DNA from: Flavobacterium cupriresistens
Lineage (GTDB): Bacteria; Bacteroidota; Bacteroidia; Flavobacteriales; Flavobacteriaceae
Assembly (NCBI RefSeq): GCF_020911925.1
Contig: NZ_CP087134.1
Span: 3,658,001 to 3,722,000 of the forward strand
Direction of reading: 5' to 3'
DNA length: 64,000 nucleotides
Shown: in pieces, positions 5,053-47,768 of the stretch
Layout of the letters: every line of letters begins with the position of its first letter
Numbering within the stretch: the first letter of the stretch is position 1
Program-made: the position numbers and the translations under genes
The notes under the pieces: model-generated
Seen by the model: only the letters and a program-made list of their open reading frames with translations
Told to the model about the DNA's origin: nothing
Databases searched by the model: none

Positions 5053-6759
5053 TTAGCTTAATCTAATTTGAGAAACACATGCTCCCGTTGGAATCATTGG
5101 GAATACGTTGTTTTCTTTTTCTACCATAACTTCTAAAAAATAAGAATCTTTTGAAGCCATCATTTCGGCTACAGCAGCATCCAAATCTTCACGTTCGGTG
5201 ACTTTTTTAGATTTAATATGATATCCTGCGGCAATTGCAACAAAATTGGGGTTGATCATTTTTGTTGAAGCATATCTGTTATCAAAAAATAATTCCTGCC
5301 ATTGGCGTACCATTCCGAGGAATTCGTTATTTAAAACAACAATTTTTACAGGCACCTTCGTCTGAAAAATGGTTCCTAATTCCTGAATGGTCATTTGGAA
5401 ACCACCGTCACCAATAACAGCGACAACTTCACGATCCGGTCTTCCCATTTTAGCTCCAATTGCAGCCGGTAAAGCAAATCCCATAGTTCCTAAACCTCCC
5501 GAAGTAATGTTACTCTTGGTTGAATTAAACTTCGCGTAACGACAGGCAAACATTTGATGCTGACCAACATCTGAAACGATAATCGCATCCCCTTTGGAGT
5601 GTTTGTTGATCATTTCGATGGTTTCACCCATAGAGATTCCTTTGTTGTTTGTTGGTTTTAACTCCTCATCGATAACCGAATCAAATTCGATTTTATATTT
5701 TTCTTTGAATTCGTTGTGCCAAGCGTCATGTGCTCTGTCATCAATTAGAGGCAATAAAGCATTTAGTGCTTCTTTTACATCGCCTAAAACAGCCACTTCT
5801 GTTTTTACATTTTTATCTACTTCTGCCGGATCAATTTCAAAATGAATCACTTTTGCCTGTTTGGCATAGGTTTTTAAATCTCCGGTAACACGATCGTCAA
5901 AACGCATTCCAAGTGCAATTAAAACATCGCATTGGTTAGTCAATAAATTAGGGCCATAATTGCCGTGCATGCCTAACATTCCCACATTCAAAGGATGAGC
6001 TGTAGGTAATGCGGAAAGTCCAAGAATCGTCCACCCTGCAGGAATTCCTGACTTTTCGATGAACGCTTTTAATTGTGCTTCGGCTTCACCCAAAATGATC
6101 CCTTGACCAAAAACAATAAAAGGTTTTTTAGCGCTATTGATTAAAGCCGCAGCTTCGGCAACTTTATCTAATTTTAATTTTGGAACCGGAGTATAACTTC
6201 TGATGGCTGTGCATTTTTCATAACTAAATTCAAATTCATCAAACTGTGCATTTTTAGTTATGTCAATCAAAACAGGCCCTGGACGACCAGAACGTGCTAT
6301 GAAAAAGGCTTTTGCCATAATCTCAGGAATTTCGGAAGCTTCCGTAATCTGATAATTCCATTTGGTTACCGGAGTTGAAATTCCGATAATGTCTGTTTCC
6401 TGAAAAGCATCAGAACCCAGTAAATGTTTTCCAACCTGACCTGTGATACAAACCATTGGTGTTGAATCGATCTGAGCATCGGCGATTCCGGTAACTAAGT
6501 TGGTTGCTCCGGGGCCTGAAGTAGCAATTGCAACTCCGACTTTTCCTGTAGCTCTCGCATATCCCTGAGCGGCATGTGTTGCGCCTTGTTCGTGACGTAC
6601 TAAAACATGGTGTAATTGCTCCTGGAATTTATATAATTCGTCGTAAACCGGCATTATGGCTCCTCCCGGATATCCATATATTAAGTCTACTCCTTCTTCT
6701 AATAAACATCTTATAACGGCTTCTGCCCCTGATATTTTCATTGTATCTGTTTTTTTCAA
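5053..6759 (-). CDS. ilvB: Acetolactate synthase large (catalytic) subunit
   Basis: ThDP-dependent condensation of two pyruvates, or pyruvate plus 2-oxobutyrate, the first common step of Val/Ile synthesis. At 568 residues it has the normal length. The N-terminal pyrimidine-binding domain shows YGYPGGAIMPVYDEL and the catalytic Glu in LVRHEQGATHAAQGYARATG. The C-terminal ThDP/Mg motif is GDGGFQMTIQEL followed by VLNNEFLGMVRQWQ. It is the second gene of the ilvDBNC unit, 112 bp after ilvD. Confidence 0.97.
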   Translation of the reverse strand: MKKTDTMKISGAEAVIRCLLEEGVDLIYGYPGGAIMPVYDELYKFQEQLHHVLVRHEQGATHAAQGYARATGKVGVAIATSGPGATNLVTGIADAQIDSTPMVCITGQVGKHLLGSDAFQETDIIGISTPVTKWNYQITEASEIPEIMAKAFFIARSGRPGPVLIDITKNAQFDEFEFSYEKCTAIRSYTPVPKLKLDKVAEAAALINSAKKPFIVFGQGIILGEAEAQLKAFIEKSGIPAGWTILGLSALPTAHPLNVGMLGMHGNYGPNLLTNQCDVLIALGMRFDDRVTGDLKTYAKQAKVIHFEIDPAEVDKNVKTEVAVLGDVKEALNALLPLIDDRAHDAWHNEFKEKYKIEFDSVIDEELKPTNNKGISMGETIEMINKHSKGDAIIVSDVGQHQMFACRYAKFNSTKSNITSGGLGTMGFALPAAIGAKMGRPDREVVAVIGDGGFQMTIQELGTIFQTKVPVKIVVLNNEFLGMVRQWQELFFDNRYASTKMINPNFVAIAAGYHIKSKKVTEREDLDAAVAEMMASKDSYFLEVMVEKENNVFPMIPTGACVSQIRLS

Positions 6760-36965: not shown

Positions 36966-37190
36966 TTAACACCCAAGTCCAACACAAGGATCATCTATAG
37001 GAAATGGATTCTCACGTATAATGTCTGCACATGGATAGAGCGGATAGTCTATACGATTCGCACCCGGAGGAGCATAGGTTTTACATTTTTCTACAGGTTT
37101 TGGGTCATTAGGACCTTTTCCTGTAATGTTTTTTTGTTCTTCGTCATTAAGAAGGTGGATTCCTTCTAAATTTAAAATAGTCTTTAACAT
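36966..37190 (-). CDS. Small Cys-rich peptide precursor with double-glycine-type leader (peptide 1)
   Basis: A 74-residue precursor. Residues 1-26 (MLKTILNLEGIHLL then NDEEQKNITGKG) look like a double-glycine-type export leader as found on Bacteroidota bacteriocin-like peptides. The predicted core of 48 residues is Pro-rich and has four Cys (36, 54, 69, 74), the last being the C-terminal residue. The leader shares 14 of 26 positions with the neighbouring peptide at 37276-37479. It is followed by its own terminator. No C39-peptidase transporter is in the window. Secretion and antimicrobial or signalling function are inferred. Confidence 0.7.
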   Translation of the reverse strand: MLKTILNLEGIHLLNDEEQKNITGKGPNDPKPVEKCKTYAPPGANRIDYPLYPCADIIRENPFPIDDPCVGLGC

Positions 37191-37275
37191 AGTTGGTTTT
37201 TTGGTTAATTTTTAGCTATCAATCTAATGCGAACCCTGCATCATTTTTTTTAGGGTTCTACATTTTGAGACCGTG

Positions 37276-37479
37276 TTAACAAATTATACCGTCTACTGTT
37301 GCTGTGCATAGTGGTATTACTTCTTCCTCACGTGGAAGCATGATACAAGGTCCGTTGTATGTAAAAGGCGACCAAGGCACGGTACATCTTATTCCTCCGC
37401 TACCGTTTCCGTTTAGGCTTTTCAGCTCTTCGCTGCTTAATACTTCGATTCCTGAAAAATTTAAAAAAGTTTTTAACAT
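37276..37479 (-). CDS. Small Cys-rich peptide precursor with double-glycine-type leader (peptide 2)
   Basis: A 67-residue precursor from MLKTFLNFSGIEVL; a start 11 codons earlier is open but would spoil the leader match. The leader continues SSEELKSLNGNG, and the core (41 residues) begins SGGIRC, with Cys at 32, 45, 58 and 67, again ending on Cys. The cores of the two peptides are unlike in sequence but share four Cys and a C-terminal Cys. The gene lies 85 bp upstream of peptide 1 on the same strand. No modification enzyme is adjacent. Confidence 0.7.
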   Translation of the reverse strand: MLKTFLNFSGIEVLSSEELKSLNGNGSGGIRCTVPWSPFTYNGPCIMLPREEEVIPLCTATVDGIIC

Positions 37480-37613
37480 AATAAAATTGGTTGTTAATAG
37501 TTGGTTTCTCAATCATTTTGTGTCCGTTGAGTTTCAGACATGAAACGTATTCTAATTGTCTTTTCTGCTGTTTTTAAATAAAGTACAAAGTCATATATTT
37601 TAATTTTTTCCTT

Positions 37614-37640
37614 AAAAAAAGCAGCTCAAAAGCGAGCTGC
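37614..37640 (-). terminator. Terminator of the 91-residue membrane protein gene
   Basis: Minus-strand GCAGCTC-GCTTTT-GAGCTGC followed by seven U. It separates this gene from the peptide genes downstream. Confidence 0.88.
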
Positions 37641-37667
37641 CTTAATTCAAAATAAAATAAAAAAAAA

Positions 37668-37943
37668 CTAAAATATATGATTTTGCTTTGTTGCAAAAAA
37701 CAAAATTGTCACTGCTACCGCTAAAATTAGCATCCTGTAAATAGAGGACTGAAACAGTGTAGTGTTATTGATTTTGTCATCTTTTCTCTGTTTTATGAGA
37801 TTAACAATCATTACAGGAATGATCACTATTATGGACAAGTACAAATAATATCGGGTAAAGCCTGGGTAAAGTTCTGATATTGCTATAAGTATAATACCCC
37901 ATAAAAAGAACACGGTATTTACTGATGTAAGATACTTTTTCAT
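37668..37943 (-). CDS. Small membrane protein (91 aa)
   Basis: Unrecognised protein with three hydrophobic segments (about 8-26 NTVFFLWGIILIAISELYP, 32-51 and 68-86) and a basic loop KQRKDDK. It starts MKKYLTSVN. It is directly upstream of the two Cys-rich peptide precursors but has its own terminator, so it is not in the same transcript. Small membrane proteins beside bacteriocin genes are often immunity proteins; here that is only a suggestion from position. Confidence 0.65.
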   Translation of the reverse strand: MKKYLTSVNTVFFLWGIILIAISELYPGFTRYYLYLSIIVIIPVMIVNLIKQRKDDKINNTTLFQSSIYRMLILAVAVTILFFATKQNHIF

Positions 37944-38100: not shown

Positions 38101-38133
38101 AAAAAAGGTCGTCTCTAATTTGAGACGACCTTT
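38101..38133 (-). terminator. Terminator of the SusCD-type operon
   Basis: Minus-strand AAAGGTCGTCTC-AAATTA-GAGACGACCTTT followed by U-rich sequence, 17 bp after the DUF4302-like gene. Confidence 0.88.
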
Positions 38134-38149: not shown

Positions 38150-39511
38150 TTATTGGAATGAGTATGCAACCATTCTAAAAGGAGTTGATGTACTCGTAAA
38201 AGTATAACCACTATAACCTGAAACCTGCGCCTTGGCAAAATAAAGACCTTGAGGATTCATGAATTGATTATCTAACGCTTGCAGGAAAGATGGAGCCGCT
38301 ATTGCTGGTGCTGTAGGTGCCGTACTTGATTTCCAAACTCCAGGGGTAAATGTAACCGTTTTCTTTGTGGCATCGGCAGTTAAAGTAAAGTAGTGGTATC
38401 TTCTGGCTACAGTGGCGCCACTGGCATTTCCGAATCTGTATTCAATAAAATTACTTCCATCAGCATTATTAAACCAAAGTTGTACTCTTGTAAGCATAAA
38501 TCCGGCTGCTTGCTCTGAATCATTTAATAAAGTCAGGAATAACTGAGAGTTTGCTGCTTCACCTTTTGTTGTATTAAATATATAAGCGTATACATTATTT
38601 CCACTTCCAGGCAGTAATAGTTTGTAATCGTCTGTTAAGGCTAAAGGTGTGTTAGAGAATTTAATGGAAGCTGTTACCCCTCCTGTTCCCGTAGCAGTAA
38701 AACTTTTATCAGTATCATTATAGGTAAAGTCGGTTAATTTTTGACCTGCAACAACTATAGCAGGACTAACAGTGATTCCTGTTGGCGTATAAGCAACTCC
38801 TGTTCTGATAACATCTCCAGATCCGTCTAAAGCTGTTGAAATGGAATATCTGCTTGCTTGCGAAACAGAGAAGCTATACTTTTTAGTGGTAGTTCCGTCG
38901 TTAGTTTCCAGCAATCTGAAAAGTGGGCTACTGCTATTTCCAATGAAATTTTGTTGTGATATTGTATTCTTAGGTAAATCAGCCCAGTCTTGAGCAGTTG
39001 CTTTTACAAAACGAACATCTCTAACTAATCTGTTGGTTTTAAAAAGAATATCACCATTGGCTTGTTTTCCGTAGTATAAAAACTGGAAATCTCCTAAGTA
39101 TCCTTTTCCTCTTAAAGCTGCAGTTGGAGCATTGCCTGAATCTGACAAAAGGTGTATTCTGTTAAAGGTAGTAAATACCACACTCATAGTGCTTCCTAAT
39201 ACCACATCAAACTGGCTTTCGTACGTTTTTGTATCGGCATTAAAATCGGATGCCATTTGTACTTTTCCGTCGTCAGTAAATTTAAACAAATGGGTAAAAC
39301 CTCCCAATTGGGTGTCATCTGTAAAATACACTGCTTTCCAGCCAAATTCTGAAGAAAGTAAGGCTGTTCTCAACTCACTTTTCTGTGCGTTTATTCGCTC
39401 GACCGGAGTTTTATCAAAGATTTTTTCCGCGTCTGTATTATTGGTACAAGCACCCAAAGACATTGCTAAAAAAGCAAACATCGAGTACTTAAATATATTT
39501 TTTAGTTTCAT
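38150..39511 (-). CDS. DUF4302-like lipoprotein
   Basis: A 453-residue lipoprotein: signal MKLKNIFKYSMFAFLAMSLG with lipobox Cys22 (GACTNN). The N-terminal region (ERINAQKSELRTALLSSEFG then WKAVYFTDD) is typical of the DUF4302 family that accompanies SusC/SusD genes. The rest is beta-rich. Probably surface exposed or periplasmic at the outer membrane. It is last in the operon and may help capture the substrate. No enzymatic motif is seen. Confidence 0.8.
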   Translation of the reverse strand: MKLKNIFKYSMFAFLAMSLGACTNNTDAEKIFDKTPVERINAQKSELRTALLSSEFGWKAVYFTDDTQLGGFTHLFKFTDDGKVQMASDFNADTKTYESQFDVVLGSTMSVVFTTFNRIHLLSDSGNAPTAALRGKGYLGDFQFLYYGKQANGDILFKTNRLVRDVRFVKATAQDWADLPKNTISQQNFIGNSSSPLFRLLETNDGTTTKKYSFSVSQASRYSISTALDGSGDVIRTGVAYTPTGITVSPAIVVAGQKLTDFTYNDTDKSFTATGTGGVTASIKFSNTPLALTDDYKLLLPGSGNNVYAYIFNTTKGEAANSQLFLTLLNDSEQAAGFMLTRVQLWFNNADGSNFIEYRFGNASGATVARRYHYFTLTADATKKTVTFTPGVWKSSTAPTAPAIAAPSFLQALDNQFMNPQGLYFAKAQVSGYSGYTFTSTSTPFRMVAYSFQ

Positions 39512-39545: not shown

Positions 39546-40406
39546 TTAGTTATTTACGACGTTGGTTGTATTTCTCTGCGCTGCATCTCTTAAAGCATAA
39601 AAGTCAATTCCGAAAGCATCTTTATAATACTGTACTACGATTGCTTCTTTTCTTTTCAATTTATCCCTTCCGTCAGCGCTTGTAATACTGGCAAGAATTG
39701 CGTCGTATTCTGCTACTGAACTTATCAATATAACAGAAGCTGTTTCAGCAAAATCTTCAGTAACATTGTTTCTTGCATAGTTCGTAACAAAACCTAGATT
39801 TCTTGAAACTGCAAGATTTTCTAAATGCCAGGTTCCTGTATAATCCCCTGGAGTAATTTTTTGCCAAGCTTGCTCGTCAAAAGGTTTGTTTTGATTTAAA
39901 ATGTGTACATACTCATGTTGAATGGTATGGATGAATTCAGTAACATTGTCTCTGTTTTTTTGATTCAGATAATCTACTTCAAAAAGGGTGATTCTCTGAC
40001 CTGAATCTGCGATACCAAGTGTTCTGGTTCCGTTTGAATTTGAATTTACTCCACCAACCAAAACAATTTCTCTTGGTGCGATGATTTTTACAAAATCAGC
40101 CCCTCCAACTTCTGAATAACTATCGATCCAGATTTGTTTAACGATATTTAAAGCTGGTTTAACTTTATCTACTAATGGAGGAAAAAGAAATCTGTTGTTA
40201 TCGACTTTATTCTGATTCCATAAGTATTGTGCGTTAATATTATAGGGATCCAGGTAATTTGTTGTGATCCATTTGTCTAGCTCCGTTTTTGGAAGAGGTG
40301 AAAAATCCAATTGACTTTCCTTAGGTTGATCTTCATGAGCACAAGCTGCAAAAGTTAAAACTCCTGCAACAAGTATCATCGTTCTATATAGTTTAAATAT
40401 TTTCAT
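39546..40406 (-). CDS. Substrate import-associated zinc metallohydrolase-type lipoprotein
   Basis: A 286-residue lipoprotein with lipobox Cys22 (LTFAACAHE). The zinc-binding HExxH motif is HEYVH at residues 164-168 (FIHTIQHEYVHILNQ). Lipoproteins of this kind are found beside TonB-dependent SusC/SusD pairs in Bacteroidota. It may trim the ligand before import or bind it. The gene lies 24 bp after susD, in the same operon. Substrate unknown; the presence of a protease-like module suggests a peptide or protein-bound ligand, which is inference. Confidence 0.85.
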   Translation of the reverse strand: MKIFKLYRTMILVAGVLTFAACAHEDQPKESQLDFSPLPKTELDKWITTNYLDPYNINAQYLWNQNKVDNNRFLFPPLVDKVKPALNIVKQIWIDSYSEVGGADFVKIIAPREIVLVGGVNSNSNGTRTLGIADSGQRITLFEVDYLNQKNRDNVTEFIHTIQHEYVHILNQNKPFDEQAWQKITPGDYTGTWHLENLAVSRNLGFVTNYARNNVTEDFAETASVILISSVAEYDAILASITSADGRDKLKRKEAIVVQYYKDAFGIDFYALRDAAQRNTTNVVNN

Positions 40407-40429: not shown

Positions 40430-41911
40430 TTATCTAGGATTTTTTTCTACGCCGTAGTTTGATGCACTTAGCGGTATTTGTAATGCTCTTCGTTTATCGT
40501 CTTTAACCAATGTGTTTACAGGTTTTCCTTGATCTTCACGGCTTACAACAATATTAAAACGTTTTACATCAAACCATCTTAATCCTTCATGAACAAAATC
40601 TCTTCTTCTCGCTTCGGTAAGCGCTTTAACATAAGAAGTTTGTACGTCTGTCATCGTATAGAACGGTGTTAACTCATCTGCAATTACAGGGTATCCTGCT
40701 ACAACATCTGCTTCAGTAAGTTTATCTGTTGCGGCATTGTATCCGGCTGTTCTTGTTCCTAAAAAGTATTCCAATTCTGTGTTGGCATCTGCAATTCTGT
40801 TTTTCATAACAAGTGCCTCAATACGGTTTAGATAAAACTCATCATTAGACAAAAGTACGATTCCACAATAAGCAATTCCAATATTTGCCGTTAGATTTGT
40901 ATATTTAAAATACTCTTCAAATTTTGGTGTAAATAAAGTACTGCTGCTGTTGTAGCTGTAAAAATCAAAAAGCCAGGCTTTTCCAAATGGATTTGTTCCA
41001 TTAAAAAGTTCTCTTTGTTTCTCATCTGTCAAATAAAAATTACTACCATTTGCAGATCTTCCGACTAATGTATTTGGTGATCCAATTAATAAATTTGACG
41101 TAAGAGAAGATTTACTGTATTCGATAAATTGAATATCCGGAGCTAAACTTGACAAAGTTACATAATCTTTTAGTTTACCAACTGGTTTAGATCCTAATCC
41201 GCTTGAAACTTCAAGTACCTTATCCCAATCTCCTTTTATTAAATAGAAACGGCTGGCAAATGCTTTGGCTGCTTCTTTGTTGAAATGGAACTTTGGCTCT
41301 TTATAGTTATTCGATACGTATCTCAATCCTTCTTCAATATCTTGTTGAATGAAATCAAAAACTTCTTTTACTGTATTTCTTTTATAACTTTTCAGTAATT
41401 CTGTTTCCGGTTCTGTAACATAAGGAACCCCTAAATCTGTTGCAGCAGTAGCCGGATTATATCGGTTTGACCAAAAGGTAACCAACATAAAATGAGAGTA
41501 TGCTCTTGCTAATAAAGCTTCTCCTTTTTGAGGATTTAAGCTAGTAGGATTTCCTAGTTCTTTAATGGACTGTAAAGCCTGATTAGCATGCGCAATAGCT
41601 CTGTAACAAGCATCCCAATAATTAGCCTGAGTATCTATATTGGTCTCGTCTTGCATTTCCCAATAGTAACTTTGTGTACTTTTTACACTGGCGTTATTTA
41701 ATTCAGCATCGGCAACGTTATCAGACATTGTTTCTCCCAAATCCATATAAGAAGCCAGCGGGTATGCATTAACCAATAACTCGGATATTTTTTCCGGTGT
41801 ATCTATTTGAGTTCTGTTATCGGGAACCTCTGACAAAAAATCATCACAGCTACTAACACCAACGAGCAGTAATAAGGCAGCGGTTATTTTTATATATTTT
41901 ATGTTTTTCAT
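40430..41911 (-). CDS. SusD/RagB-family outer-membrane lipoprotein
   Basis: Surface lipoprotein that forms the lid of the SusC transporter. It has 493 residues from MKNIKYIKIT; an upstream TTG is rejected. The signal peptide ends at lipobox Cys22 (VGVSSCDDFLSEVPDNRTQI). The family pattern includes SQSYYWEMQ-like N-terminal helices, QKGEALLARAYSHFMLVTFW and, at the end, ALTEARRRDFVHEGLRWFDVKR, of which RRRDFVHEGLRWFDVKR is diagnostic. It follows susC by 11 bp. The ligand is unknown. Confidence 0.94.
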   Translation of the reverse strand: MKNIKYIKITAALLLLVGVSSCDDFLSEVPDNRTQIDTPEKISELLVNAYPLASYMDLGETMSDNVADAELNNASVKSTQSYYWEMQDETNIDTQANYWDACYRAIAHANQALQSIKELGNPTSLNPQKGEALLARAYSHFMLVTFWSNRYNPATAATDLGVPYVTEPETELLKSYKRNTVKEVFDFIQQDIEEGLRYVSNNYKEPKFHFNKEAAKAFASRFYLIKGDWDKVLEVSSGLGSKPVGKLKDYVTLSSLAPDIQFIEYSKSSLTSNLLIGSPNTLVGRSANGSNFYLTDEKQRELFNGTNPFGKAWLFDFYSYNSSSTLFTPKFEEYFKYTNLTANIGIAYCGIVLLSNDEFYLNRIEALVMKNRIADANTELEYFLGTRTAGYNAATDKLTEADVVAGYPVIADELTPFYTMTDVQTSYVKALTEARRRDFVHEGLRWFDVKRFNIVVSREDQGKPVNTLVKDDKRRALQIPLSASNYGVEKNPR

Positions 41912-41922
41912 AATCAACTATA

Positions 41923-44900
41923 TTAAAATGAAAGGTTTAAAGTAAAACTGTATTGTGTTGTAATTGGGAAAGCTACACCTCCTGTATTACGGAATTCAGG
42001 ATCTTGTCCGTTTAATCTCTTATCAGAATAGATCAACCAAGGGTTAACTGCTGAACCTTTTAATGTAAAGGTACTTACGCCTAATTTTTTCTTGAAATCA
42101 TTAGGGAATTCCCAGCTAAGTGAAACATTTTTTAGTCTTATGAAATCACCATCTGCAATTCTAACATCAGAATAATTATAAGTATTGTAAGCACGTCCAA
42201 GCGTATTAACTCCACCGTAATTTGTAATCAAACGTTTGTCAGCAATAACCGGAACGTCTGTACGTTGTTCGTCACCTGGATTGATCCAACGATTTGTGAA
42301 ATCTTTTGTAAACACAGCTAAATCATCGTATTGACTGCTGAATGCCGGGTTTAAACGAACTTTGTTTCCACCTGATCCTACGAAAAACACATATAATGAC
42401 CAGCTTTTGTATGTAAACGTGTTAGCTAAACCAATTGATTTGTTTGGCTCGATTGAACCTTCGTATTTCAAGTACTTAGTAACATTTTCAGTATCCTGAA
42501 AATTAGCTCCAGTTACTTTATCATCTTCACCATCCTGCATCACAAAAGTTGGTAATCCTTGGTTATTTAAACCTGTAAATTGGTAAGAATAGATTGAATT
42601 TCTAGGACGACCAAGAGCATTTCCTCCATTTCCATCAACTAAATCAAATGCTGTAGGTTGATTTTCTAATTTTGTAATCTTTTGGTTGAACACAGAGAAA
42701 TTAAGTGTTGTTGACCATTTAAATTTATCTGTAACAATGTTTTGAGTAGTAAAACCAATCTCAATACCTTTAGTTTCCATATTAGCATTATTTCCTTGCT
42801 TGATTTTTTGTCCTCCAATTCCTGAAGTAACAACAAAATCAACTAAATCAAATGCTTTACGGCTATAAACGTCTGTTGTAAACTGAACTCTGTTATTAAA
42901 CATTCCTAAATCAACACCGATGTTGGTTTCGTACTGTTTTTCCCAAGTCAAATCAGAGTTTTGTAACTGCTCAATATCAATTCCTGTTTCTCTGTCTGGA
43001 ATACCTAGACGGTCTGTAATAAAACTTTTGTAGATCGCTAATGAGTTGGTCGCCGGACCGGCTGTTGCAGTAAGCCCATAAGATGCTCTTAAAGCTAAAT
43101 TATTGATAGATTCTACATTTTTCATGAATTTTTCTTCAGCAACATTCCATTTTCCACTAAAAGTATAAGTCGGAAGCCATCTTGAAGAACCACTGTTTCC
43201 TTGTCTGTTTGATCCGTCATAACGACCTGTAATCGATCCTGTATAACGACGATCATACGTATATCCTACTTTACCAAAGAAACCAACTGTTCTTTCTCTT
43301 TCAGCACTTAATCCATAGTAAGAGTTTCCTTCATTAATAATTTTTTCAATAAGTTTTGGATCGGTAAAAGCTGTTAATCCTCTGTCGTATTGAAGTCCTG
43401 CAGCAGTAAAATTATCACTGTTTCTGTCTAAAGATCTTAGCTCTGTACCGAAAAAGCCTTCTAATTCATGCTTTTCATTCAAAGTATTTCTGTACGTCAC
43501 ACTGTTTCTGATATTGTAAGAAGTCAGGTCGTTAGTGAATTTTCTTAAGAATCCACCATTAGGTAATACAGAAATTGGTTGTGCTGTTAAATCGTTCGGA
43601 TCTTTATATAAAAAGATGTTAGCGTCTCTAACGATTGTGTTTGCGCCATCTGCACCATATTCTGTACCCGCTTTGTAAGCTCCTACAACATTTGAATTTT
43701 CGTAAATTTTGTGCTCTCTTGAAGTATTGGCATAACGCGCAGAACCTGTAAGATTATAACTTAAATGTTTGTTGATTTTATAATCTAAATCCAATTGAAA
43801 ACGGATGTCTTTTACTTTAATTTCTAAAACATTGTTTTGCAATTCGTTAATAATATTCATTGGAGCCCAGTTATTTCTGTAGTACTCTAATCCACCTGCG
43901 TCATTATAAGGACGAAGTGTTCTGCTCGTACTTAAAACATAATTGAACGGGTTGATATCAAAATCTCTGGTTACGTTACCGAATACAACATCTTGTTGGC
44001 TTTCGTAACTTCCCGGAGCGGTTTGATCACGAACAGAAGCTAAGGTAGACAACGTGATGTTTAATCTGTCGTTTACATAAAAAGTTCCTTTAATATTCGA
44101 TGATAATTGTTTTACACTGTCAGCAATTGTCCATCCCGGATCTGTGTAATAACCCAATGATGCATAAAAAGTATTGTTTTTTCCACCACCTGAAAAGCTT
44201 AAAGAGTGATTTTGTGTAATTGAAGGTCTGAATAAAACTTTGAACCAATCTGTGTTTCCTAATTCGTATTTTTTCAGAAACTGATTCATATAAGGTTGCT
44301 CGTTTCTAACCCCGAACTGTCCATTTGATGTGTTGTAGGTGTTAATTTCTTTTGAAAGAATATTGTAAACCCCACCATATCTACCCTGAAGAGTTGATGG
44401 CATGTCAAGAAAACCTTTTTGTTCCATTTCTTTTAAAATACTCATAGATTCCTGAGAATTTAGAATATCGTACTGTGTGTAACTTGGAACTGTTCTAACT
44501 GTATTTTCAACAGAATAACTTACTTTTAAAGGAGAATCTCTACGTCCTTGTTTTGTTGTAACAACTACAACTCCATTTAATGATCTTGAACCATAGATTG
44601 AAGTAGCTGATGCATCTTTCAAAATTTCAATACTTTGGATGTCATTTGAGTTTAATCCCGCAACTGCAGAACTCAACAAAGTTTCAGAGTTTCCTGAAGC
44701 TAAATCTGCAAATGAAATGTTGATGATATCTTCTTGTACCACACCATCGATAACCCATAATGGTTTTGTATCACCAAAAATGGAAGAAGATCCACGAACT
44801 GTAATTTTAGGAGCAGTACCAAATGTTCCGGTAACGTTCTGAACCGTTACACCCGCTGCTTTTCCTTCAATCATTCTACTGATATCTACAACACCGTCTA

Positions 44901-45648
44901 CTTTTAATTCAGTACCCGAAATTTTACTAATCGCTCCTGTAAAAGTTCTTTTTGATGTTTTTTCGTAACCGGTAGTTACTACAACCTCTTTTAAGTTCTG
45001 TCCTGCTTCGTTCAAAACAATAGTTGGGGTAGTATTCGATATTCCAATTTCTTTAGTCTCCATACCAACATAAGAAATTACTAAAGCGGTACTATTTGCC
45101 GGCATTTCGATAGAGAAATTACCGTCAAAGTCCGTTAATACAGCTACTTTTGATCCCTTAGCCAATACGGTTGCACCAGGTAACGGAACTCCACTTGGGT
45201 CCGTAACTTTACCTCTAATGATTGGTCCCGGAACCAGAACATCAAATAATGAAGCCGGAGTTTCTGCGCCTGAAAAAATATTCTTGCTGCTTTTTTGCAA
45301 TATAATCTGATTGCTAATTTCAGCGTATGAAATATTTAAGGGTTCCAGAATTCTCGACAAAATTGCCGATAAGGTCTCATCATTTGCTTCTATACTAACT
45401 CTTTGGTTGAGTTGTGTTATTCTTGAATTATAAGAAAACTTAACCTGAGCCGATTTTGCAAGTTTAGACAATGCGTTATCCAAAGTTAAATTTTCAACTG
45501 TAATTGTAACTTTGGTGTCTAGTTTCTTTTGTCCATTTATATCGTTTGCCATAGCAACACTTGAAAAGATAAGTGCTAAGACAAACTGAAATAGTGTTAT
45601 TTTCATGATTCGATGGAGTAATCGTTGTTTAACAACTGGTTTTTTCAT
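41923..45648 (-). CDS. SusC/RagA-family TonB-dependent transporter with STN signalling domain
   Basis: Outer-membrane importer of 1241 residues. In order: signal region (about 15-35), STN domain (about 45-120; VTITVENLTLDNALSKLAKS), carboxypeptidase-like beta domain (about 148-230; GKVTDPSGVPLPGATVLAKG), plug (about 235-365; ISRMIEGKAAGVTVQNVTG and LKDASATSIYGSRSLNGVVV) and the beta-barrel, ending in Phe (FTLNLSF). The STN domain implies cell-surface signalling to the FecR anti-sigma encoded upstream. It is cotranscribed with SusD and the two lipoproteins. Confidence 0.95.
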   Translation of the reverse strand: MKKPVVKQRLLHRIMKITLFQFVLALIFSSVAMANDINGQKKLDTKVTITVENLTLDNALSKLAKSAQVKFSYNSRITQLNQRVSIEANDETLSAILSRILEPLNISYAEISNQIILQKSSKNIFSGAETPASLFDVLVPGPIIRGKVTDPSGVPLPGATVLAKGSKVAVLTDFDGNFSIEMPANSTALVISYVGMETKEIGISNTTPTIVLNEAGQNLKEVVVTTGYEKTSKRTFTGAISKISGTELKVDGVVDISRMIEGKAAGVTVQNVTGTFGTAPKITVRGSSSIFGDTKPLWVIDGVVQEDIINISFADLASGNSETLLSSAVAGLNSNDIQSIEILKDASATSIYGSRSLNGVVVVTTKQGRRDSPLKVSYSVENTVRTVPSYTQYDILNSQESMSILKEMEQKGFLDMPSTLQGRYGGVYNILSKEINTYNTSNGQFGVRNEQPYMNQFLKKYELGNTDWFKVLFRPSITQNHSLSFSGGGKNNTFYASLGYYTDPGWTIADSVKQLSSNIKGTFYVNDRLNITLSTLASVRDQTAPGSYESQQDVVFGNVTRDFDINPFNYVLSTSRTLRPYNDAGGLEYYRNNWAPMNIINELQNNVLEIKVKDIRFQLDLDYKINKHLSYNLTGSARYANTSREHKIYENSNVVGAYKAGTEYGADGANTIVRDANIFLYKDPNDLTAQPISVLPNGGFLRKFTNDLTSYNIRNSVTYRNTLNEKHELEGFFGTELRSLDRNSDNFTAAGLQYDRGLTAFTDPKLIEKIINEGNSYYGLSAERERTVGFFGKVGYTYDRRYTGSITGRYDGSNRQGNSGSSRWLPTYTFSGKWNVAEEKFMKNVESINNLALRASYGLTATAGPATNSLAIYKSFITDRLGIPDRETGIDIEQLQNSDLTWEKQYETNIGVDLGMFNNRVQFTTDVYSRKAFDLVDFVVTSGIGGQKIKQGNNANMETKGIEIGFTTQNIVTDKFKWSTTLNFSVFNQKITKLENQPTAFDLVDGNGGNALGRPRNSIYSYQFTGLNNQGLPTFVMQDGEDDKVTGANFQDTENVTKYLKYEGSIEPNKSIGLANTFTYKSWSLYVFFVGSGGNKVRLNPAFSSQYDDLAVFTKDFTNRWINPGDEQRTDVPVIADKRLITNYGGVNTLGRAYNTYNYSDVRIADGDFIRLKNVSLSWEFPNDFKKKLGVSTFTLKGSAVNPWLIYSDKRLNGQDPEFRNTGGVAFPITTQYSFTLNLSF

Positions 45649-45954: not shown

Positions 45955-47067
45955 TTAATTACATCCTTCAGATAGTATGATAATCTGGTTTCCATTCATT
46001 TCAAAGCTGGTATTATTACCGATACTTTTGCATACAATTCTTAACTTCTCCGTCAGAGGCTGATCGCTAAGCGAAGTGGTAAGATGACACTCCTTTAATT
46101 TGTCTTTAGGATAATCAATATCAATCAGATAAGCTTGCTCAATTGTTTCAAAAATTTGAGCGACCGGTATATCGGTAAATTCAAAACTTAATTGTTCGAT
46201 ATTACCAACACTGCTTACCAATGTTTTGTCCTGAGTAATATTGGTGATTTTGTTAAAAGTTAGATCACTTCGTTGAAAACGCAATGCCTGATTAGGGAGT
46301 AAAACGACCTCCCTATCCGACATCGATACTAATTCATTCGATTTAACCTTAACTTTACCGGTGCGAACGAGAACTTCTACATTTGGCTGATCGGAATAAG
46401 CTTTAACCCTAAAGCTGGTTCCAACAACTTTTGTAACAATTTCGTTTGCGTAAACGAAAAAAGGCTTTTTAGGATTTTTACTAATTTCAAAGAAACCTTC
46501 GCCGGACAAATACACCTTTCTTTCGTTTCCGGTAAAGATTTTAGGATAACTTAATTTACTATTGGGTTGTAATAAAACAGAACTTCCGTCTGATAATGTA
46601 ATGATTTGAGGTTTGCTGGAATTATTTGTTTGTTCCACCAATCCTTCTTTATTGTCATCAATTAGTTCATTGTAGGTAACAACTTCATGACTTGTGCTTG
46701 AAGTGCTTTTGTAAAACCAAACCGACATTAAGCAAAAAAATAATGCGGCAGCAACTCCAGCTAAAAAATATTTTTTTAGAAAACTAAATGTGTTATTTTG
46801 AGTGGAATCAATTTGATTCTCTTTTTTTTCAATTTTGCTCCAGGTATCCTGCAACGCTTTGTGAATATCGGAATTGGATAATTCTGAATTTGGTGCTTTC
46901 ATTGCAAGCAAAAACAATCTTGCATCTTCAACCAATTTCGCACGTTGCTGATTTTCTAAAGTCCATTCTTCCCAACCGTCCTCGTCAATTTGAGAGAGGA
47001 TCCAGGACTGGAATGATTTATCAGATAAAAAATCTTCTATTTCGGTATATGTACTACGTTCTTGCAT
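45955..47067 (-). CDS. FecR-family anti-sigma factor
   Basis: A 370-residue single-pass inner-membrane protein. The cytoplasmic N-terminal part (1-98) binds the sigma factor. A membrane helix at about 100-118 (YFLAGVAAALFFCLMSVWFY) is followed by a periplasmic FecR domain (VTKVVGTSFRVKAYSDQPNV, EVLVRTGKVKV) and a C-terminal STN-interacting segment (SFEFTDIPVAQIFETIEQAY). It relays ligand binding by the SusC-type receptor to the ECF sigma. It lies 89 bp after the sigma gene and 306 bp before susC. Confidence 0.94.
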   Translation of the reverse strand: MQERSTYTEIEDFLSDKSFQSWILSQIDEDGWEEWTLENQQRAKLVEDARLFLLAMKAPNSELSNSDIHKALQDTWSKIEKKENQIDSTQNNTFSFLKKYFLAGVAAALFFCLMSVWFYKSTSSTSHEVVTYNELIDDNKEGLVEQTNNSSKPQIITLSDGSSVLLQPNSKLSYPKIFTGNERKVYLSGEGFFEISKNPKKPFFVYANEIVTKVVGTSFRVKAYSDQPNVEVLVRTGKVKVKSNELVSMSDREVVLLPNQALRFQRSDLTFNKITNITQDKTLVSSVGNIEQLSFEFTDIPVAQIFETIEQAYLIDIDYPKDKLKECHLTTSLSDQPLTEKLRIVCKSIGNNTSFEMNGNQIIILSEGCN

Positions 47068-47156: not shown

Positions 47157-47768
47157 TTAAAAAGTACTTGAGGATAGTAGTGCAATTATAGAAAAAGTAC
47201 CTTTCCATTCCTTGCGAAGCGTAAGTAAACCGCGGTACAAGAGATTACTTGCAGACTGATAATTGACATCCAGCATTTCTGCGATTTGTTCAACTGTAAG
47301 TCCCTGATGGTATCTGAGATACAAGGCTTCTTTTTGTCTTACCGGAAGATTATTTAATAATTCATTCAAATGCGTCACTTTTGCTCTTGTAGTATCATCG
47401 TCATCGTCGATAAGTTCATGCTCTACCGAAAATTTCAATAAAAAAGCTACAGAATCAGTGCTTGCTGCTTTGCGAAAGATGTGGTCTCTTTCGTGTAAAC
47501 GTGCAATTCTTTTACGAACACTTGATAATAAATAAGCTTTTACAACTACAGAACCTTGCAAGCTGTTCCTGTAGACCCATACATCAGTAAACACATCTTG
47601 TATGCAATCCTGAACTTTCTCTGCAAAGGGCGAAAGTGAATTACCGTAATTAACCAAATCTCTGTAATACCTTTCGAATAGTAATGAAAATGATTTCTCA
47701 TCTCCTTCTTTCAGGTTAGTCCAAAGCGTAATGTCATCAAATGGGGTTTGTAAAATTTTGGTTTTCAT
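47157..47768 (-). CDS. ECF RNA polymerase sigma-70 factor
   Basis: A 203-residue extracytoplasmic-function sigma factor. Region 2 is at about 25-100 (SFSLLFERYYRDLVNYGNSL, CIQDVFTDVWVYRNSL), and region 4 with its HTH at about 135-190 (LPVRQKEALYLRYHQGLTVE, MLDVNYQSASNLLYRGLLTL). With the FecR and STN-bearing SusC gene downstream, it forms a trans-envelope signalling set that probably switches on the uptake operon. The C-terminal tail (FSIIALLSSSTF) is hydrophobic and may be a small extension. Confidence 0.95.
   Translation of the reverse strand: MKTKILQTPFDDITLWTNLKEGDEKSFSLLFERYYRDLVNYGNSLSPFAEKVQDCIQDVFTDVWVYRNSLQGSVVVKAYLLSSVRKRIARLHERDHIFRKAASTDSVAFLLKFSVEHELIDDDDDTTRAKVTHLNELLNNLPVRQKEALYLRYHQGLTVEQIAEMLDVNYQSASNLLYRGLLTLRKEWKGTFSIIALLSSSTF

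Follow-up and report, generated by a model that had tools for sequence, protein, structure and literature searches.

Two tandem minus-strand open reading frames (ORFs) encode small Cys-rich precursors in the window (the whole stretch of 64,000 nucleotides of Flavobacterium cupriresistens DNA that was analysed, contig NZ_CP087134.1, positions 3,658,001 to 3,722,000). Precursor 1 (36966..37190, 74 a.a.) has a leader ending in EEQKNITGK and a core, here called type A, with YAPPGANRxxYPLYPC plus two more cysteines. Precursor 2 (37276..37479, 67 a.a. from the ATG at 37479; the ORF list instead starts it at an upstream TTG) has a leader ending in EELKSLNGN and a type B core, CTVPWSPFTYNGPC plus two more cysteines. 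As an initial annotation of this locus had described, 14 of 26 leader positions are identical between the two precursors (counted by eye on the translations), and each has four cysteines, one of them the last residue.

The precursor genes lie at the 3′ end of a block on the same strand, a link that the initial annotation overlooked. This block encodes an ECF sigma factor (47157..47768), a FecR-type anti-sigma factor (45955..47067; PF04773 and PF16344), a SusC/RagA TonB-linked outer-membrane protein with an STN domain (41923..45648), a SusD-like lipoprotein (40430..41911; PF14322), a substrate import-associated zinc metallohydrolase lipoprotein, hereafter zincin (39546..40406; TIGR04549 and PF15890), and a DUF4302 lipoprotein (38150..39511; PF14135). 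The operon thus has the elements of FecIRA-type signalling, i.e. an ECF sigma factor, FecR and an STN domain on the transporter. Between DUF4302 and the precursors is a gene for a small membrane protein of 91 a.a. (37668..37943, minus strand), a hydrophobic ORF that is indeed followed by its own hairpin, as first annotated: a probable intrinsic terminator at 37614..37640 (minus strand; GCAGCTC-loop-GAGCTGC and seven T), read by eye and not listed by the terminator scan. Hairpins with T runs also follow DUF4302 (38104..38133, minus strand, a probable terminator; the scan listed the hairpin on the plus strand) and precursor 1, and only that after DUF4302 was listed by the automated scan. Given the hairpin and T run after the 91-a.a. 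gene, and those elsewhere, the two precursor genes probably form a separate transcript.

Both window precursors are real genes. Their database relatives share 95% identity, and also 97%, 88% and 52% (the window's own proteins may themselves be in clusters P0001 and P0002, but not in P0003, at 88%, or P0004, at 52%). A profile search with the precursor family retrieved 62 proteins, and all organism-named rows among these matches are Flavobacterium. The pN/pS ratio is 0.04–0.45 in 10 out of 13 precursor gene pairs, and 0.47–0.55 in the three pairs that involve the window's 74-a.a. gene. A leader profile trained on 30 leaders from five loci with C39-exporter cassettes (chosen by regular expression, none of them SusCD-linked) detects the window precursors with E-values of 6e-10 and 3.5e-6, and the next of the 421 window ORFs has an E-value of 0.29. 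Neither window precursor has a match in a scan of Pfam and NCBIfam at E up to 1, the peptide has no relatives in a PDB sequence search at E up to 10, PADLOC gave no matches, and the AlphaFold2 model of the peptide has a mean pLDDT of 57 and a pTM of 0.26. The precursors are probably those of secreted Cys-rich peptides, of an exported kind found across the genus.

The cores were initially described as unrelated; they do align, however, with the first pair of cysteines and the prolines around it in common, and P0004 mixes features of both. In type A cores a C is followed by [WYF]AP and this by YPxYPC; type B cores follow CT[IV]PW[ST]P[FL]xYxGPCIM; two further cysteines usually come after the first pair in both types. 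The number of cysteines, which had been taken to be fixed, is so only in part. All four are invariant in alignment A5 (17 rows, assembled without the two-Cys members L087, L088, L096 and L099, the type C/D members L029, L093 and L097, L091 and the second gene of L082), but invariance is limited to the first two in alignment A6 (42 rows), and members with two cysteines account for four out of 23 SusCD-linked precursor genes read and 13 out of the 62 profile matches. Two other forms were seen. One is a precursor-like ORF, perhaps a decayed one, just downstream of DUF4302 in another genome (L103:763-987, G241); its core is short and it has a single Cys. The other is a lone six-Cys precursor found in two genomes (L037:9747-9947 and L039:9650-9850; MKTRLL..GVEVLS/GAEVLS..GSGKGGNPDLSLCGCSCSG), with no exporter matches within the 19 kb read.

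The leaders resemble those cut by C39 peptidases. The available text of one report (PMC6363468) names positions −12, −8, −7 and −4 for ComA/LahT, with Gly, Ala or Ser at −1. Placing the cut behind residue 25 gives precursor 2 Leu-12, Glu-8, Leu-7 and Leu-4, as named there; precursor 1 departs from this register at −7, where it has Gln, a residue also found at this position in 25 of the 30 cassette leaders. Both window leaders retain Gly-2 and end in GK (precursor 1) or GN (precursor 2), i.e. in none of GG, GA or GS at −2/−1. Of 47 placed relatives, 29 have Gly or Ser at −1 and the other 18 have Lys, Asn, Arg or Phe. Owing to the non-canonical Lys or Asn at −1, we file the window precursors as a variant and not as strict members of the C39 double-glycine group.

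The initial annotation stated that no C39 transporter is adjacent and that maturation would depend on genes elsewhere. The first statement holds and the second is supported: four C39 ABC exporters score above the cut-off elsewhere in the same genome, and one of them belongs to a cassette (L031; G000:C1, about 1.374-1.383 Mb). This cassette encodes an AraC/TPR regulator, a VKOR/C39-like protein, an HlyD protein, two Cys-rich precursors whose leaders are of this kind too, and the C39 exporter, which aligns with the chains of PCAT1 and ComA along almost its whole length. The VKOR/C39-like protein of the cassette is present in all 19 precursor genomes counted. The genome search that had been proposed for further leaders and an exporter therefore turned up both (matches to the A2 profile within this genome include A2's own rows), and the possibility raised with it, that the genome holds neither, falls away. 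Related cassettes in other genomes have up to 21 leader-bearing ORFs; in L036:6648-15954 (G004), for example, 21 leader-bearing Cys-rich ORFs surround a single C39 exporter, and two neighbours are identical in protein sequence. L031 also contains, at positions 5761-6489 (G000:C1 about 1.3758-1.3765 Mb) and on the strand opposite to its Cys-rich precursors, four small Cys-free precursor-like ORFs (e.g. MKTKKIKFEDF..KKQQKAVRGGD..DPIKGGGNTGGNG); the one that was scored comes near TIGR04149, below the cut-off.

These cassettes bring in the main rival reading, a bacteriocin or class II microcin-like toxin that would be exported by a C39 transporter and kill relatives, perhaps entering them via the same kind of SusCD receptor. 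We regard it as possible, though on balance improbable. Kinship of the leaders with the C39 cassettes, small Cys-rich cores, arrays of many precursors as in L036 and patchy presence would all suit a toxin, as would the NCBIfam bacteriocin-like models that lie near some relatives and the source name of P0016 ('Bacteriocin-type signal se...'). The window precursors themselves, however, match none of the Pfam and NCBIfam models, and the 91-a.a. protein, the sole neighbour assessed as an immunity gene, does not track them: it accompanies DUF4302 in 11 out of 19 precursor loci, in two of the 11 as a fragment or partial match, and in 27 out of 59 loci that lack precursors (p = 0.43; L133, truncated, and L160, a fragment, are excluded from this count). 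The role of immunity or export helper first suggested for this protein is accordingly unsupported. An enzymatically modified RiPP, with its modifying enzyme encoded elsewhere, is very improbable. One small Cys-free precursor of the cassette does resemble the TIGR04149 rSAM-modified RiPPs, at a score under the cut-off, but a modification enzyme is absent beside the precursors and among the cassette genes scanned, and paired cysteines together with a VKOR protein suit plain disulfides.

The precursors are linked to the SusCD operon across the genus. Among 299 Flavobacterium genomes searched there are 19 strong family places (E < 1e-11; the rows of the window, G004 and G008 were in the search profile) in 16 genomes, and all 19 are just downstream of an orthologous DUF4302 gene; no such place occurs in the 223 genomes that lack a DUF4302 match. 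Divergent precursors occupy this slot in another three genomes. The strong and divergent places are 146-1895 bp downstream of DUF4302, on the same strand; weak leader-only matches (E 1e-11 to 1e-3) were read in part, among the matches listed. The whole block is found in the same order in F. panacis, whose genome is possibly one of the 299. In total 86 loci around DUF4302 were read, some places twice, and 30 of them with a flank of ∼1.5 kb, so that distant precursors could escape in loci that seem to have none.

Presence of the precursors goes with presence of both the operon and the cassette. Matches to DUF4302 at E up to 1e-40 occur in 76 out of 299 genomes, and matches to the VKOR protein of the cassette, at E up to 1e-100, occur in 79. 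With shared descent ignored, precursors are found in 19 of the 49 genomes that have both, and in none of the 27 with the operon only, the 30 with the cassette only or the 193 with neither. The 19 genomes include three (G100, G159 and G225) counted by slot position and leader match; as divergent members were sought in the slot alone, the bias-free set is the strict 16, for which p = 8e-11 (operon) and 3e-4 and 1.6e-4 (conditional tests), shared descent again being ignored. A precursor was not found in the other 30 of the 49 genomes, and the operon therefore does not need the precursor.

The slot after DUF4302 also holds other genes. The 91-a.a. protein is frequent there, with or without precursors, and in several loci a Cys-rich lipoprotein of ∼288 a.a. 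without a Pfam match follows DUF4302 (L104:341-1207; the same slot in L086, L105, L106, L110, L114 and L137). The precursors could thus be passenger genes, inherited with the block because the gap collects small genes, with no functional tie to SusCD. We consider this unlikely, if still a reading of some weight: the precursors, the 91-a.a. protein and the 288-a.a. lipoprotein are unrelated and use the same slot, probable terminators split the transcription units, and many operons are without a precursor. Against it, besides the lack of strong family places in the 223 genomes without DUF4302, is the behaviour of the block. The operon and the precursors occur together in another gene context in G004, G299 and G307 (in G004 they adjoin AraC and DUF417 genes). 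Conversely, in close relatives without the operon (G072, G098, G137 and G268) a 142-a.a. gene and FabG are adjacent, the site is intact and the precursors are absent; three more distant genomes have FabG and lack both operon and precursor (eight genomes were picked from the 30 with the cassette only, and the site was read in the seven that have the flanking gene). The moved contexts with precursors and the joint absence at the empty site indicate that block and precursors behave together as a single island.

The precursors have been gained or lost often, yet they are clustered on the DUF4302 tree (a quick search with 72 proteins, fragments and distant homologues being excluded). Their presence requires 11 changes, at least 10 of them forced by well-supported branches, as compared with 17.6 in shuffles; ancestral presence with many losses would give the same pattern. 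Core distances (n = 17; each genome represented by a single precursor, the window by precursor 1) correlate with the distances of SusD (0.57) and DUF4302 (0.61), and given the flanking 675-a.a. gene the partial correlations are 0.48 and 0.50, respectively. The flanking gene itself gives 0.48 (partial correlation 0.36 given SusD) and FabG 0.08. These values are compatible with co-evolution of peptide and receptor, short of proof; linked genes share history.

The explanation that we prefer, tentatively and at a little below even confidence, is that the peptides are an exported, disulfide-bonded ligand or cargo of their own SusCD system. The precursors, with their variant double-glycine leader, would be cut after residue 25 and exported by the C39 exporter of L031 (or another of the four), and their Cys pairs would oxidise with help from the VKOR-type protein of the cassette, as leader, cassette and co-occurrence suggest. 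The resulting 42- and 49-residue peptides may then act, as ligand or as cargo carrier, on the SusC(STN)-SusD-zincin-DUF4302 receptor encoded next to them; FecR and the ECF sigma factor might relay binding or uptake, and the peptide could be cut by the zincin. Export in trans by a C39 cassette is a well-supported inference, and it is the linkage that speaks for the receptor step: it hints, short of proof, that the bacterium imports or detects a peptide that it makes itself. A broader version, which we think possible but rather doubtful, would be a Gram-negative autocrine system, in which a C39-exported disulfide-bonded peptide is read by a linked SusCD-STN/FecR/ECF system, as a pheromone or as a carrier returning a ligand, with peptide and receptor co-diversifying.

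Most SusCD systems have no known substrate, and foreign nutrients are the usual assumption. If our preferred explanation is true, a secreted self-peptide would give the SusCD/zincin/DUF4302 class a testable ligand and would connect C39 peptide export in Bacteroidota with surface signalling. By analogy, one concrete form of this proposal would be a peptide that carries iron, or a different ligand in short supply. In the available text of PMC5429918, a related zinc metallohydrolase/RagB/SusC set of Riemerella (B739_0101-0103) shows values of 3.06-3.81 under iron limitation, which we take as log2 changes; in that of PMC10434189, the DUF4302 gene BT3961 of B. thetaiotaomicron shows −3.2 in iron-depleted versus iron-rich growth. 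These responses are opposite in direction, and either is compatible with a nutrient role that needs no peptide. We also considered a SusD mutation of F. johnsoniae; the available text of PMC10197871 gives no sign of a tie to the DUF4302 operon. Titles and the starts of abstracts, among the literature matches listed, do not describe the precursors or their link with SusCD, which is weak evidence of absence.

Several known systems resemble the one proposed here in part. Peptides with a C39-type leader, Cys-rich and bacteriocin-like, are a known kind, so the initial annotation's 'new' is unsupported at that level: some Flavobacterium leader relatives score below, but towards, the cut-offs of NF047798 (leader_Chryseo, bacteriocin-like protein) and TIGR04149, although neither window precursor reaches the curated cut-off of either (no hits). 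With the C39/PCAT systems (ComA, PCAT1 and LahT) the window precursors share a register of Leu-12, Glu-8, a hydrophobic residue at −4 and Gly-2; unlike in those systems, they are unlinked from an exporter and have Lys or Asn at −1, where 18 of the 47 relatives have Lys, Asn, Arg or Phe. As in FecIRA cell-surface signalling, an ECF sigma factor, FecR and an STN-bearing TonB-dependent transporter follow in order, but here the transporter is a SusCD, zincin and DUF4302 come with it, and a peptide gene lies at the 3′ end of the operon. Class II microcins, e.g. microcin V with its receptor Cir, combine a small peptide, C39-type export and a TonB-dependent outer-membrane receptor. The window system, as known from its genes, likewise has a small peptide, a C39-type leader and a TonB-dependent outer-membrane receptor; unlike microcin V and Cir, its receptor operon is linked to the peptide, its receptor is a SusCD and not a siderophore receptor, and the one neighbour assessed as an immunity gene does not track the peptide.
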